A stretch of DNA of 64,000 nt. Source: Ottowia sp. SB7-C50. Its GTDB lineage: Bacteria > Pseudomonadota > Gammaproteobacteria > Burkholderiales > Burkholderiaceae_C. Each line of letters opens with the position of its first letter. Position 1 is the stretch's first letter. The notes below the pieces were generated by a model. It was not told the origin of the DNA. It was given only the letters and a program-made list of their open reading frames with translations, and made no database searches. The position numbers and the translations under genes are program-made. Below are positions 42,386 to 47,654 of this stretch, one piece after another. The DNA is taken from contig NZ_CP136995.1 in assembly GCF_033110285.1 (NCBI RefSeq), positions 2,542,001-2,606,000 of the forward strand. Direction: 5' to 3'.

Positions 42386-43663
42386 TCATTTCATCGCCCG
42401 GTGGCCAATGTCGCGCCGATACTGCATGCCGTCAAAGTGAATGCCGCGCGCCGCGTCGTACGCCTTGACCTGCGCCTGCTTGACCGAATCGGCCAGCGCG
42501 GTCACGCACAGCACGCGCCCGCCCGACGTCCTGACTTGATCGCCCTCGGCCACCGTGCCGGCGTGGAACACCACCACCTCGTCGGTCGGCTTGGGCAAGC
42601 CGGTGATCAGATCGCCCTTCTTCGGATTCAGCGGATAACCGCCGGCCGCCAGCACCACGCCCAACGCCACGCGGCGGTCCCACTGCAGTTCCACCTCGTC
42701 CAGCTTGCCGGACGTGGCGGCCATCATCACGTCCACCAGGTCGGACTTCAGCCGCATCATGATCGGCTGCGTCTCGGGGTCGCCCATGCGGGTGTTGAAT
42801 TCCAGCGTCTTGGGTTTGCCCTCGCCGTCGATCATCAGGCCGGCGTAGAGAAAACCGGTGAACGGAATGCCGTCCTTGTCCATGCCGCGAATCGTGGGCA
42901 GGATGACGTCGCGCATGGCCCGTGCGTGCACCTGCGGCGTAACCACCGGCGCGGGCGAATACGCGCCCATGCCGCCGGTATTGGGGCCCTGGTCGCCGTC
43001 CTTCAGGCGCTTGTGGTCCTGGCTGCTGGCCATGGCAACGACGTTCTTGCCGTCGCACATGACGATGAAGCTGGCCTCTTCGCCCTGCAGGAATTCCTCG
43101 ATCACGACGCGCGCACCACCGGCGTTGTGCGCCACGCCCAGCGTGTTGCCGCCCAGCATGTCGTCGATGGCCGCGTGCGCTTCATCTTTGGTAGCAGCCA
43201 CCACAACCCCCTTACCGGCTGCCAGGCCATCGGCCTTGACAACGATGGGCGCGCCCATCCTGTCCACGTAGGCGTGCGCGCCCGCCGGATCGCTGAAGGT
43301 CTCGTACGCCGCGGTCGGAATGCCGTGGCGCTTCATGAAGTCCTTGCTGAAGGCCTTGGAGCTTTCCAGCTGCGCCGCCGCCCTGGTCGGCCCGAAGATG
43401 CGCAGGCCATGGGCGCGAAAGTCGTCCACCACGCCCGCGGCCAGCGGCTGCTCTGGCCCGACCACCGTCAGCGCGATCTTCTCGGCCAGCGCCCAGTCGC
43501 GCAGCTTGCCCAAGTCGGTGATGGGCACGTTCTTCAGGTTGGGCGCCGTACCCGTTCCGCCGTTGCCGGGCGCGACATAGACCTGCTGCACCTTGGGCGA
43601 TTGCGCCAGCTTCCAGGCCAGCGCATGTTCACGGCCGCCACCGCCGATGACGAGAATTTTCAT
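42386..43663 (-). CDS. purD: Phosphoribosylamine-glycine ligase
   Basis: A 425-residue ATP-grasp enzyme, second step of purine synthesis. MKILVIGGGGREHALAWKL at the N-terminus, VVGPEQPLAAGVVD, the ATP-grasp segment PIVVKADGLAAGKGVVVA, and the C-terminal metal-binding GFLYAGLMI and LEFNTRMGDPETQ are clear. Complete. Confidence 0.97.
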   Translation of the reverse strand: MKILVIGGGGREHALAWKLAQSPKVQQVYVAPGNGGTGTAPNLKNVPITDLGKLRDWALAEKIALTVVGPEQPLAAGVVDDFRAHGLRIFGPTRAAAQLESSKAFSKDFMKRHGIPTAAYETFSDPAGAHAYVDRMGAPIVVKADGLAAGKGVVVAATKDEAHAAIDDMLGGNTLGVAHNAGGARVVIEEFLQGEEASFIVMCDGKNVVAMASSQDHKRLKDGDQGPNTGGMGAYSPAPVVTPQVHARAMRDVILPTIRGMDKDGIPFTGFLYAGLMIDGEGKPKTLEFNTRMGDPETQPIMMRLKSDLVDVMMAATSGKLDEVELQWDRRVALGVVLAAGGYPLNPKKGDLITGLPKPTDEVVVFHAGTVAEGDQVRTSGGRVLCVTALADSVKQAQVKAYDAARGIHFDGMQYRRDIGHRAMK

Positions 43664-43701
43664 GAGGAGTGTTTTCTACCAAGGGTCAACGCAAAAAAGC
43701 C

Positions 43702-44085
43702 GTCATTCCCGCGAAGGCGGGAATCCATGCGTTTGCGCACCACCCAACGCTTCATCGTATAGGTCCTGCCAGTGCGGGTTGCCGGCCCACTGGGCAGAGG
43801 GTTGTTCGATCAACCGGATTTTCCACTCGCGGTTCCACTTCTTAAGCTGCTTTTCGCGCGTGATGGCGTGGGTCATGTCAGCGTGCCGCTCAAAATACAC
43901 CAACCGATGCAAGGCGTACTTGCGTGTGAAGCCGTCGATAAGATCCTGTTTGTGCTGCCAGATGCGCTGCGCCAGATGAGACGTCACGCCGATGTACAAA
44001 GTCCCGTGAAACGCGTTCGCCGGGATGTACACGGCAGGCTGCTTCATGGTTGATGCACATGGATTCCCGCCTTCGCGGGAATGAC
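43702..44085. mobile_element. Candidate mobile unit: GIY-YIG gene between inverted palindromic repeats
   Basis: The palindrome ATTCCCGCGAAGGCGGGAAT (43705-43724) and its inverted partner ATTCCCGCCTTCGCGGGAAT (44063-44082) sit at the two edges, both with GTCATT facing outward and TCCATG facing inward. The nuclease gene fills the interior and even uses repeat bases for its last codons. A gene-less pair with the same arrangement lies at 47569-47654. Confidence 0.5.
43703..44047 (-). CDS. GIY-YIG single-domain nuclease
   Basis: A 114-residue stand-alone GIY-YIG nuclease domain. VYIPANAFHGTLYIGVTSHLAQRIWQHK supplies the two-strand motif and the helix with catalytic Arg; KYALHRLVYFE, ITREKQLKKWNREWKIRLIE and NPHWQDLYDE complete the usual pattern of this small family. 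The C-terminus (GFPPSRE) is encoded by the flanking palindrome. No ribosome binding site is obvious. Such genes are scattered in proteobacteria with unclear roles. Enclosure by inverted repeats suggests mobility. Confidence 0.8.
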   Translation of the reverse strand: MKQPAVYIPANAFHGTLYIGVTSHLAQRIWQHKQDLIDGFTRKYALHRLVYFERHADMTHAITREKQLKKWNREWKIRLIEQPSAQWAGNPHWQDLYDEALGGAQTHGFPPSRE

Positions 44086-44247
44086 GTCCGTGTGCCGCTC
44101 GACCAGCGCCTTGCTGGCCGCCGGCTGGGGCGCGCATTGGGCGGCGTTGAATCCGGCCGACACCGCCCCGCCGCTGAAGCACCAGGCCACCTCGCTGCCG
44201 CCGCCGCAGCCGGCCAGCCACAGCGTGGCCAGCACGGCCAGCTTCAC
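44044..44247 (-). CDS. Possible small lipoprotein coupled to yebC
   Basis: 67 codons starting at a GTG that overlaps the yebC stop. The N-terminus [18 protein letters not shown] has a hydrophobic stretch and lipobox LAGC (Cys 14), so a short lipoprotein is plausible. The last 14 residues ([14 protein letters not shown]) are encoded by the palindromic repeat, so the original C-terminus may have been shorter or lost. Low confidence because of the size and the repeat invasion. Confidence 0.4.
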
Positions 44248-44972
44248 GCTTCCTCCACGTTGGCGTTGTGGAAGACGTTCTGCACGTCGTCCAGGTCTTC
44301 CAGCACGTCCAGCAGCTTCTGCATCCGGGCGGCGTCTTCGCCGGCCAGGTCGATGTTGTTTTCGGCGCGCATCGTCACCTCGGCCAGCTCGGGCGTCAGG
44401 CCGGCGGCTTCCAGCGCGGCTTTGACGGCTTCGAACTGCGCCGGATCGGTCAGCACTTCGATCGCGCCGTCGTCGTCGGTGATGACGTCGTCGGCGCCGG
44501 CTTCCAGCGCGACTTCCATCACTTTTTCTTCATCGGTGCCCGGCGCAAAGAACAGCTGGCCGACGTGCTTGAACTGGAACGCCACCGACCCTTCGGTGCC
44601 CAGGTTGCCGCCGTACTTGCTGAAGGCGTGGCGCACCTCGGCCACGGTGCGCACGCGGTTGTCGGTCATGGTGTCGACGATGACGGCGGCGCCGCCGATG
44701 CCGTAGCCTTCGTAGCGGATTTCTTCGTAGTTCACGCCTTCGAGGTTGCCGGTGGCCTTGTCGATGTTGCGTTTGACGGTGTCGGCCGGCATGTTGGCGG
44801 CCTTGGCCTTTTCAATCGCCAGGCGCAGGCGCGGGTTGGCCGCCGGGTCGCCGCCGCCGGTGCGCGCTGCCACCATGATTTCGCGCACCACGCGGGTCCA
44901 GATGCGTTGCCGCTTTTCGTCCTGCCGGCCCTTGCGGTGCTGGATGTTGGCCCATTTGCTGTGACCCGCCAT
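44244..44972 (-). CDS. yebC: YebC/PmpR-family protein (TACO1-like)
   Basis: A 242-residue protein starting [22 protein letters not shown], the family signature, followed by [14 protein letters not shown] in the C-terminal domain. Members act as transcription regulators or help ribosomes translate polyproline stretches. It is divergent from the HerA-like gene. Confidence 0.95.
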
Positions 44973-45045
44973 AACTCTCTGCCTCTGACTTGACTATCGG
45001 GATAATCAGATCATTCTACTTTTCGCACCCCACGCGCACCCTGAC

Positions 45046-46557
45046 ATGGCCGATCCCATCCTCATCGCCCAGCACGGCGACATCCAGTGCTTCATCCTTC
45101 CGGGCCTGGCCAACCGCCACGGCCTGATCACCGGCGCCACCGGCACCGGCAAGACGGTGACGCTGCAGAAGCTGGCCGAATCGTTCAGCGCCATCGGCGT
45201 GCCGGTGTTCATGAGCGACGTGAAGGGCGACCTGACCGGCATCAGCCAGCCCGGCAGCATCGGCGGCAAGCTGGCCGGCATCCTGAAGGAGCGCGGCCTG
45301 CCCACGCCCGAGCCGATGGCCTGCCCCACCACGCTGTGGGACGTGTTCGGCGAGCAGGGCCACCCGGTGCGCGCCACCGTGAGCGACATGGGCCCGCTGC
45401 TGCTGTCGCGCATGCTGGACCTGAACGAGACGCAGGCCGGCGTGCTCAACCTGGTCTTCAAGATCGCCGACGACAACGGCCTGCTGCTGCTGGACATGAA
45501 GGACCTGCGCGCCATGCTCACCTACGTGGGCGACAACGCGAAGAACTTCACCACGCAGTACGGCAACGTCAGTACCGCCAGCATCGGCGCCATCCAACGC
45601 GGGCTGCTGACGCTGGAAAGCCAGGGCGGCGACAAGTTCTTTGGCGAGCCGATGCTGAACCTGGACGACATGATGCAGACCGTGTCGGGCAAGGGCGTCA
45701 TCAACATCCTGAGTGCCGACAAGCTGCTGCAGTCGCCGCGCCTGTACGCCACCTTTTTGCTGTGGATGCTGTCCGACCTGTACGAGCGGCTGCCCGAAAT
45801 CGGCGACCCCGAAAAGCCCAAGTTCGCCTTCTTCTTCGACGAGGCGCACCTGCTGTTCAACGACGCGCCCAAGGTGCTGCTGGAGCGCATCGAGCTGGTG
45901 GTGCGGCTGATCCGAAGCAAGGGCGTGGGCGTGTACTTCGTGACGCAAAACCCCATCGACGTGCCCGACACCGTGCTGGCGCAGCTGGGCAACCGCGTGC
46001 AGCACGCGCTGCGCGCCTTCACCGCGCGCGACCAGAAGGCCGTGAAGGCCACGGCCGAAACCATGCGCGGCAACCCCAACCTGGACATCGAGACCGCCAT
46101 CACCGAGCTGGCCACCGGCGAGGCGCTGGTCAGCTTCCTCGACGAGAAAGGCCGGCCCGGCGTGACGCAGCGCGTGTACGTCATCCCGCCCGGCAGCCAG
46201 ATCGGCCCCATCACCGACGCGCAGCGCGCCGACCTCGTCAAGAGCTCGCTGGTGGCCGGCACGTACGAACAGACGGTCGATCGCGAATCGGCCTACGAAA
46301 TGCTGGCCCAGCGCGGCGCTCAGGGCAGTGCCGGCGCCCCAGGTCAGCCCGGTGGTGCAGCGCCCGCGCCGCAGGACGGTGGCCTGCTGGGCCAGGTCGG
46401 CAACGTGGTCAAGGAAGCCATGTTCGGCCGCACCGGCCCGCGCGGGGGCCAGTACGACGGCCTGGTGCAGAACGTGGTCAAGGGCGAGATGCGCCGCATG
46501 GGCCGCGAGCTGCTGCGCGGCGCGCTCGGCAGCCTGCTGGGCGGCAAGCGGCGATAA
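45046..46557 (+). CDS. HerA-like DUF853 ATPase (YjgR family)
   Basis: A 503-residue P-loop ATPase related to HerA/FtsK. Walker A is [19 protein letters not shown] (about residue 30), the [10 protein letters not shown] block follows, Walker B is [12 protein letters not shown] (about residue 262), and the sensor region is [24 protein letters not shown]. The C-terminus carries a Gly/Ala/Pro-rich linker and [17 protein letters not shown]. The family's biological role is not settled; DNA translocation or a partner nuclease is possible, but none lies adjacent. Confidence 0.88.
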
Positions 46558-46561
46558 ACCT

Positions 46562-46614
46562 GATTAGCCCCCAGCGCTTGTCCCCATTGCGCAATCAGCT
46601 ACTTAATCAATAGC
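46562..46614 (-). repeat. Dispersed short repeat, family 1 (copy 6)
   Basis: Reverse-orientation copy (GCTATTGATT...AGCTGATTGCGC...ACAAGCGCTGGGGGC on the minus strand), ending 4 bp before the upp start codon. Confidence 0.65.
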
Positions 46615-46618
46615 AACC

Positions 46619-47251
46619 ATGACACCGCAAGTCCACCACGTCACCCACCCGCTGGTGCAGCACAAGCTGACACTGATGCGCAACAAGAACGCCAGCAGCA
46701 CCACCTTCCGCACCTTGCTGGGCGAGCTGGCCATGCTGATGGCGTACGAAGTCACGCGCGACATGCCCACGCAGCTGGTCGAGATCGAGACGCCGCTGGA
46801 AAAGACGCTGAGCCCCATGATCGACGGCAAGAAGGTGGTGTTTGCCAGCATCCTGCGCGCGGGCAACGGCATGCTGGACGGCCTGCTGCGCGTGGTGCCG
46901 AACGCGCGCGTTGGCCACGTCGGCCTGTACCGCGACCCCGAGACGCTGCAGGCCATCGAGTACTACTACAAGATGCCCGCCGACATGGCCGAACGCGACG
47001 TGATCGCGGTTGACCCGATGCTGGCCACCGGCCATTCGGCGGTGGCGGCCATCGACAAGCTGAAGGCCGCCGGCCCGCGCTCGATCAAGTTCCTGTGCCT
47101 GCTGGCCGCGCCCGAAGGCATTGCCACACTGCACGCCGCGCACCCGGATGTGGCGATCTACACCGCCGCCATCGACCGCCAACTGAACGACCACGGCTAC
47201 ATCCTGCCGGGGCTGGGGGATGCGGGGGACCGCATCTTTGGGACGAAGTAA
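46619..47251 (+). CDS. upp: Uracil phosphoribosyltransferase
   Basis: A 210-residue uracil salvage enzyme making UMP from [24 protein letters not shown] at the start, [17 protein letters not shown], and the PRPP-binding loop [15 protein letters not shown] are diagnostic. Dispersed repeats lie immediately on both sides: family 1 before the ATG and family 2 right after the stop. Confidence 0.96.
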
Positions 47252-47252
47252 G

Positions 47253-47366
47253 TCCCCCCTGAGTCGGCCTGCGGCCGCCATCCCCCAGGGGGACAACGCT
47301 GGCGGCCGGGCAAAGCCCGCTCCGCGGCGTTCGCGTGTGGCCTGCTCCGCGGCCGCGGGAAGCGGG
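47253..47366 (-). repeat. Dispersed repeat, family 2 (copy 4)
   Basis: Reverse-orientation copy starting 1 bp after the upp stop: TCCCCCCTGAG ... CCCCCAGGGGGACAACGC ... CCTGCTCCGCGGCC. Orientation relative to the stop codon is the same as in copies 1-3. Confidence 0.75.
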
Positions 47367-47433
47367 CTTGCTGCGCAGCCCGGGGGTGAGGCTCCCGCAG
47401 TGGTGGGAGCGAGGTGTGGAAGCTCCTGTTTTT

Positions 47434-47474
47434 ATAGCTGGTTGCGCTTGACCAACGGGCGCTGGCGGCTTTTT
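47434..47474 (+). repeat. Dispersed short repeat, family 1 (copy 7)
   Basis: ATAGCTGGTTGCGCTTGACC...GGGCGCTGGCGGCTTTTTG copy in the 500-bp gap after upp. Confidence 0.65.
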
Positions 47475-47568
47475 GTATTGAAAAGTTGCGCGCTTGCGGC
47501 GCCAGAAATTCAGGAACAAGGGTCTTGTCGATCTCAACGCGACCTGACCGCGCTCGTCGTCTCTCATC

Positions 47569-47654
47569 GTCATTCCCGCGCAGGCGGGAATCCATGCATC
47601 CACCGCAGCGCACGTGCCACGCACGTGTGGATTCCCGCCTTCGCGGGAATGACG
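47569..47654. repeat. Inverted pair of palindromic repeats without a gene
   Basis: ATTCCCGCGCAGGCGGGAAT (47572-47591) and ATTCCCGCCTTCGCGGGAAT (47631-47650) face each other across about 39 bp, with the same outer GTCATT and inner TCCATG/TGTGG edges as the pair around the GIY-YIG gene. It looks like a short, gene-less version of that unit. Confidence 0.6.

Follow-up and report, generated by a model that had tools for sequence, protein, structure and literature searches.

We analyzed a window of 64,000 nucleotides (positions 2542001 to 2606000 of the single-contig, 3.61-Mb genome of Ottowia sp. SB7-C50) in which a small nuclease gene is enclosed by two repetitive extragenic palindromes (REPs); features of the window are given in its own coordinates. 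The REP-nuclease-REP unit spans positions 43701 to 44086 from tag to tag and is bounded by inverted arms of 29 nt (43701 to 43729 and 44058 to 44086) that are 100% complementary. The gene (43703 to 44047, minus strand) is intact and encodes a GIY-YIG nuclease of 114 aa. Both REPs match the CGTC-1 repeat in sequence and turn their tags outward; one lies downstream of the gene (43702 to 43726, plus strand) and the other 13 nt upstream of its start (44061 to 44085, minus strand), and the 334-nt spacer between them contains the nuclease gene. The unit is flanked by two minus-strand genes, placed by synteny and named here, as we assume from their sequences, purD (42386 to 43663) and yebC (44244 to 44972). 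A short open reading frame (ORF; 44044 to 44247, minus strand) is called lipoprotein-like from its sequence rather than from a database hit; its stop overlaps the start codon of the nuclease gene (ATGA), a layout that could couple their translation. The original prediction, made from the sequence alone, held that the palindromes enclose only the nuclease gene. The layout bears this out, but the boundaries are less clean: the final seven codons of the gene and its TGA lie within the downstream REP, and the upstream REP overlaps the 3' part of the lipoprotein-like ORF, which is read through it.

The product of the enclosed gene matches PF01541 (E = 8.5e-12), which is the sole domain found; no HUH tyrosine transposase was found in the unit. 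In the family alignment, Y7, Y18, G20, and E65 are conserved and R28 is nearly invariant, and we take these residues to be catalytic. The gene has one match in the host genome. The ratios of nonsynonymous to synonymous substitution rates (dN/dS) are 0.11 between the host gene and its copy at locus L034 (L001/L034) and 0.07 between two other related copies (L046/L056), indicating purifying selection. A moderately confident structure model (mean pLDDT, 80.7; pTM, 0.72) has GIY-YIG proteins as its nearest folds (UPF0213, UvrC, and Slx1), all of them weak matches (best E, 7e-3; none at E ≤ 0.001). Phage carriage found no support, with no match to the nuclease among 50,697 phage records at an E of 1e-5.

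The host repeat has a CGTC tag, an 8-bp stem beginning with AT, a 4-nt loop, and a CCA tail, as do CGTC-1 REPs, and across the genome its tag takes the form (C/T)GTC. The palindrome pattern occurs at 66 sites in 3.61 Mb, compared to 0 for the backwards control; with up to 2 mismatches allowed there are 96 matches, or 93 oriented sites after 3 double-strand matches are merged. There are 37 pairs of neighbors less than 500 bp apart, where random placement predicts 1.3 (maximum of 7 in 2,000 draws), and 35 of these face inward with their tags outside, leaving 1 outward and 1 tandem. The repeats are thus numerous and mostly arranged head to head, a result in favor of the original prediction, which had proposed a test for inverted pairs, and 68 of the 93 sites belong to inward pairs less than 100 bp apart. 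Loops and flanks were compared in 34 of the 35 inward pairs (the pair at 3522791 was left out). The two loops of a pair agree in 24/34 cases, a count that none of 20,000 shuffles reached (shuffled mean, 13.4), indicating that the two REPs of a pair are inherited together. Pyrimidines occupy both positions before GTC in 67 of 68 outer flanks; only the upstream REP of the gene unit departs from this. The spacers of the inward pairs measure 22 to 48 nt in 34 of 35 and 334 nt, with the gene, in the remaining one. One of the ordinary pairs lies in the window itself, after upp (REPs at 47569 to 47593, plus strand, and, inverted, at 47629 to 47653, minus strand; both assigned by sequence match). Its 29-nt arms are 97% complementary, and its spacer is 35 nt between the 25-mers, or 39 bp between the 20-bp palindromes. 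Thus, all four palindromes of the window, the 39 bp inside the second pair, and the GIY-YIG identity of the gene inside the first are exactly as the original prediction had them. The unit is best explained as a gene-carrying version of the genome-wide REP pairs, in which the nuclease gene replaces the usual short spacer.

This arrangement recurs in many phyla. We compared 92 loci, to which a scan of GTDB genomes contributed its best 80. When matched inverted hairpins were sought without regard to tags, they were found at 44/92 loci and in 4 of 714 windows of the same stretches; on reading, all 44 loci show a GTC tag in at least one arm. A second test made the tag part of the search and asked for GTCA-tagged hairpins within 300 bp of the gene; it covered 84 of the 92 loci, with 8 dropped for a flank shorter than 120 bp. 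Tagged hairpins lie on at least one side of the gene at 73/84 loci, on both sides at 55/84, and on both sides with tags outward at 49/84, and the corresponding counts for random windows are 45, 1, and 1 of 761. A chance association, or one that reflects regional repeat density, would draw on the facts that REPs are common and intergenic and that random windows consist mostly of coding DNA, which makes the edges of other ORFs (≥100 aa, same loci) the fairer control. These edges have a tagged hairpin on one side in 44/374 cases and on both sides in 8/374 (Fisher P = 2e-41 and 1e-40, respectively, compared with the nuclease genes), and together with the further controls they refute this explanation, to which we assign a vanishingly small probability. 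A second sample consisted of the 30 best-scoring matches from a phylum-level genome sample, rather than a random draw, less 2 that had already been counted; it gave 25/28 on one side and 20/28 on both, with controls at 5/52 and 0/52, and shared no locus with the first sample at >90% identity over 500 bp. Thus, the expectation that genes of this family lie beside or between such repeats more often than chance would have it is borne out. Other GIY-YIG matches lack tagged hairpins (0/17 and 0/6), but this control is weak, as most of a UvrC-type window falls within the gene itself and L033, among the six, is doubtful; the other control genes, also a weak comparison, have them at 1/23 and 0/19 loci, where yebC and upp loci come from congeners that, as far as seen, mostly lack this REP. 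Contig ends cut off 3/20, 1/24, and 1/20 control loci, and gene bounds are approximate for a few others. The flanks of L023, L024, L025, and L031 hold further families of GTCA-type palindromes, visible as recurring peptides in translation; the hairpin test missed L023 and L024.

The stems adjoining the gene vary by locus (ATTCCC, ATTCCG, ATACCG, ACCCTC, ATTGCG, and others), and 37 of 50 loci have the same stem on their left and right arms (shuffled mean, 22.1; maximum, 29). When stem labels were mapped on a tree of 90 proteins, 19 changes were required, compared to 23.5 after shuffling (0/200 shuffles as low), showing that stem types cluster with enzyme lineage. The tree left out 2 of the 92 proteins, which were too short, and 20 of its rows belong to no label group; it is poorly resolved, with 16 of 87 inner branches well supported, and near-copies contribute to the clustering. 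A few well-supported forks unite different phyla, as with L107 and L112. The gene-bearing pair of Tistlia (G275) likewise has a spacer of 334 nt.

To follow the gene and the repeat across genomes, we searched 250 genomes of the family. Among 15 positives, 11 genomes with 12 loci hold the true nuclease family by alignment (52 to 66% identity); the remaining matches represent another GIY-YIG family, except L033, which is doubtful. The exact REP pattern is present in 24/250 of these genomes: it occurs in 7 of the 11 gene-bearing genomes and in 17 of the other 239 (Fisher P = 8e-6). Each of the 11 gene-bearing genomes checked has at least 4 sites of the generic tagged pattern. Three other congeners have 3, 0, and 0 exact REP sites. 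In the phylum-level sample, in which at most 12 candidates were scored per genome, the gene was found in 102/398 genomes (E ≤ 1e-15), and by a count from the resulting table 48 of these 102 have two to six matches, most of them well diverged. A homolog in Neisseria gonorrhoeae, found by tblastn among plasmid records, shows 54.5% identity over 87% and sits amid a cluster of the same repeats. The record that holds it, NZ_CP119140.1, a 2.17-Mb N. gonorrhoeae sequence labeled as a plasmid, looks chromosomal by its size.

The site occupied by the unit is empty in relatives. We examined 24 congeners with yebC, 4 of which lack a purD start in the stretch, and in 20/20 readable congeners the purD-yebC interval contains neither a tagged hairpin nor the nuclease, as the original prediction required of orthologous loci; the lipoprotein-like ORF is kept, with its own stop, in 10 congeners. 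Related copies elsewhere show where the unit ends. The loci L046 and L056, on two contigs of one metagenome-assembled genome (MAG) and hence possibly mis-binned, are 88% alike over 413 bp and have unrelated flanks, and their homology begins at the left GTC and ends at the right GAC within a base or two. L057 and L068 show the same tag-to-tag homology between unrelated flanks, and by coordinates the 396-bp block shared by L037 and L089 ends at their REPs. In a comparison of multicopy genomes (13 genomes, 38 loci), most pairs are too diverged for boundaries to be fixed; L249 and L251 (81%) agree at the right-hand tag only. Tag-to-tag copies, empty sites in congeners, and the recurrent association of gene and hairpin together show that the REP-nuclease-REP unit behaves as a discrete, horizontally moving module. 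The mobility that had been proposed is upheld for the module, with the nuclease as its putative driver. The parallel with autonomous and nonautonomous elements of REP systems is also well founded as an arrangement, given the pairing, the association, and the empty sites.

The same observations bear on a homing-like alternative, in which the nuclease cuts REP pairs and its gene is copied into a gene-less pair by way of the REP arms, the REPs themselves spreading by other means. Homing would explain why the gene occupies the exact spacer position of a pair and why many REP-bearing genomes lack the gene, and GIY-YIG is a classic homing-nuclease fold. However, none of the 20 readable congeners has a gene-less pair at purD-yebC, although few congeners are known to carry the REP at all, and related copies have the REP arms and the gene in common and nothing beyond them; we consider homing unlikely. 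Of 20 related loci, G264 alone has the gene-less pair after upp; the 19 others lack it within 800 bp of the upp end, and the gene that follows this pair is seemingly common to G260, G250, and G253 among the relatives inspected. Alternatively, the nuclease could serve its host as an enzyme of the Ssn type (discussed below) whose targets are REPs in single-stranded DNA, such as that taken up in natural transformation; the REPs would then stay close by for regulation, and mobility would be incidental. The N. gonorrhoeae homolog in its cluster of repeats, the reported link of Ssn to transformation, and the strong purifying selection would suit such a role, but the patchy presence of the gene (11/250 family genomes, 102/398 in the phylum-level sample), the forks that join phyla, the empty sites, and the tag-to-tag copies would not; a host function appears about as unlikely as homing.

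Some REP pairs do travel with other elements. In G345 (L290 to L319), a miniature inverted-repeat transposable element (MITE)-like element of ∼146 bp, bounded by ACCG-type inverted ends and flanked on either side by TA, harbors a CGTC REP pair. We scored 40 copies among 256 candidates, and one copy interrupts a nuclease gene copy, which over 291 bp matches its twin at 99.3% identity. This interruption was at one time a candidate for direct insertion of a REP pair, which we dropped because TA and the ACCG-type ends point to a MITE-like carrier; for the same reason, it is not counted toward movement by the nuclease. The IS630 label for the G345 element is our assumption, drawn from the TA duplication. 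This case could be extended to REP pairs in general, with or without the gene, which would then ride within other transposons, for instance IS630-type MITEs. In the host genome, however, the 12 bases outside the 68 REPs of the 34 pairs hold no conserved arm except the YY dinucleotide, and the marks of an IS630-type MITE, conserved terminal inverted repeats and a TA duplication, are not seen over these 12 bases; L046 and L056, moreover, end at their tags. We therefore regard a general passenger model as highly improbable. Separately, in the closest relatives, L135 (G264) and L034 (JAKOYD010000164.1), the same unit has its upstream REP broken by an insertion sequence. The left junction of this insertion is seen in L135 and the right one in L034, with GCGAAGGC on both sides; the two are different, MAG-like records, and the far junction of L135 itself differs. 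Insertion sequences that target REPs are already described (PMC1525189). Tandem nuclease genes occur in L253 (G556; 88% over 460 bp) and L252 (G459; 70% over 339 bp), and arrays of tagged hairpins between the two genes of L253 suggest local amplification.

What moves the module is a matter of interpretation. Most likely, and with a little better than even confidence, the tagged hairpin, in single-stranded form, is the substrate of the nuclease, whose action mobilizes or exchanges REP-bounded DNA. It would recognize the GTC-tagged hairpin as a single strand, exposed for example when transforming DNA enters the cell or on the template of the lagging strand, and would cut next to the tag. The cut would favor the excision, copying, or exchange of DNA between REPs, including the enzyme's own unit and, in trans, gene-less pairs. 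GIY-YIG enzymes hydrolyze DNA and form no covalent intermediate, so host repair would have to join the strands. A stronger form of this proposal is an element of a new enzymatic type, a self-mobile, minimal GIY-YIG "transposon" with hairpin ends, which would move tag to tag via single-stranded DNA and spread gene-less CGTC pairs in trans; this is possible, but we lean against it. Several observations weigh against a driving role for the nuclease. Of the 24 family genomes that carry the exact REP, 17 lack any match to this nuclease, which implies that the repeats persist, or even spread, without it; the GIY-YIG matches in these genomes are mostly open frames of ∼630 to 780 codons, presumably UvrC-like given their length. 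Tagged hairpins are absent within 300 bp at 11/84 loci. A hand count of listed repeats in two genomes shows that the gene is bordered by a minority stem in both, which accounts for 3 of 50 sites in G275 and for 11 of 100 in G278. The tag-to-tag pair L046/L056 may suffer from mis-binning, and neither a target duplication nor an excision footprint was seen at the unit. As G345 indicates, some REP pairs are probably moved by a different transposase, and we know of no GIY-YIG enzyme with strand transfer activity. Even so, among candidates for the partner that this large family of bacterial repeats still lacks, the nuclease ranks first. Because it is encoded beside or between its probable recognition repeats, the question of which enzyme serves CGTC REPs becomes directly testable. 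If this nuclease does so, it would add a second, unrelated class of enzyme to REP biology, and, if the unit is self-mobile, the CGTC REP superfamily would have its missing enzyme.

Much of this system has known relatives. We take the Neisseria homolog to be an Ssn nuclease; Ssn proteins (2025) are reportedly site-specific, single-strand GIY-YIG nucleases that act on such Neisseria repeats, with an emphasis on cleavage specificity and transformation. Like the host enzyme, the Neisseria homolog, which lies amid dRS3-type repeats, is a short GIY-YIG-only protein, and the Ssn nucleases gain a genomic and evolutionary setting from the loci described here. The proposal of an undescribed system is therefore not supported, since the repeat, too, fits a known family. 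CGTC-1 REPs, called dRS3 in Neisseria, are described with a CGTC tag, an 8-bp stem, a 4-nt loop, and a CCA tail, mostly in pairs with tags outside (Di Nocera et al. 2013, PMC3733652), and on this account the host repeats are alike in tag, stem, loop, tail, and pairing. They differ from the published description in being accompanied by a nuclease gene; CGTC REPs are recorded there in five phyla with no dedicated transposase reported in the sections on these repeats, unlike GTAG REPs and their REP-associated tyrosine transposases (RAYTs), and GIY-YIG is not mentioned in the main text (PMC3733652). A literature search returned no publication that joins this nuclease to REPs among the matches listed, and none on dRS3 together with GIY-YIG; in the passages of PMC9465073 consulted, a RAYT and a GIY-YIG gene are both among clade-specific genes and are not linked to each other. 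As far as the literature was searched, the counts that place the gene within or next to REP pairs in many phyla seem to be new, as do the arm-arm agreement, the arm-lineage agreement, and the tag-to-tag copies.

A close parallel is the REPtron, in which RAYTs accompany REP doublets forming hairpins (REPINs). As far as the REPIN/RAYT descriptions consulted go, the inverted REP pair as a unit, an enzyme gene bordered by REPs, and the association of stem with lineage are shared; the enzyme and the tag are not, as RAYTs are HUH tyrosine enzymes with a GTAG tag and here we find a GIY-YIG nuclease with (C/T)GTC. The enzyme gene of the host is bordered by a REP that populates the genome, as in RAYT systems, while in G275 and G278 the bordering stem is in the minority. 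RAYTs are described, in the parts of these papers that treat them, as single-copy and apparently not self-mobile (PMC3116915, PMC8266576); here, in contrast, the gene lies inside the pair, and nearly half of the positive genomes in the phylum-level sample have two or more matches. IS200/IS605 elements, as partly consulted, also have a small gene between palindromes and a unit that runs tag to tag; they differ in fold, the enzyme here being GIY-YIG with no HUH transposase found in the unit. UPF0213/YhbQ-like proteins, UvrC, and Slx1 share the GIY-YIG fold, as weak matches, and tagged hairpins were not seen at the other GIY-YIG matches of the weak control above. Thus, we conclude that this is a CGTC-1 REP system with what is, by homology, probably an Ssn-family nuclease, a system that works like a REPtron with its REPINs yet differs from it in enzyme and tag.

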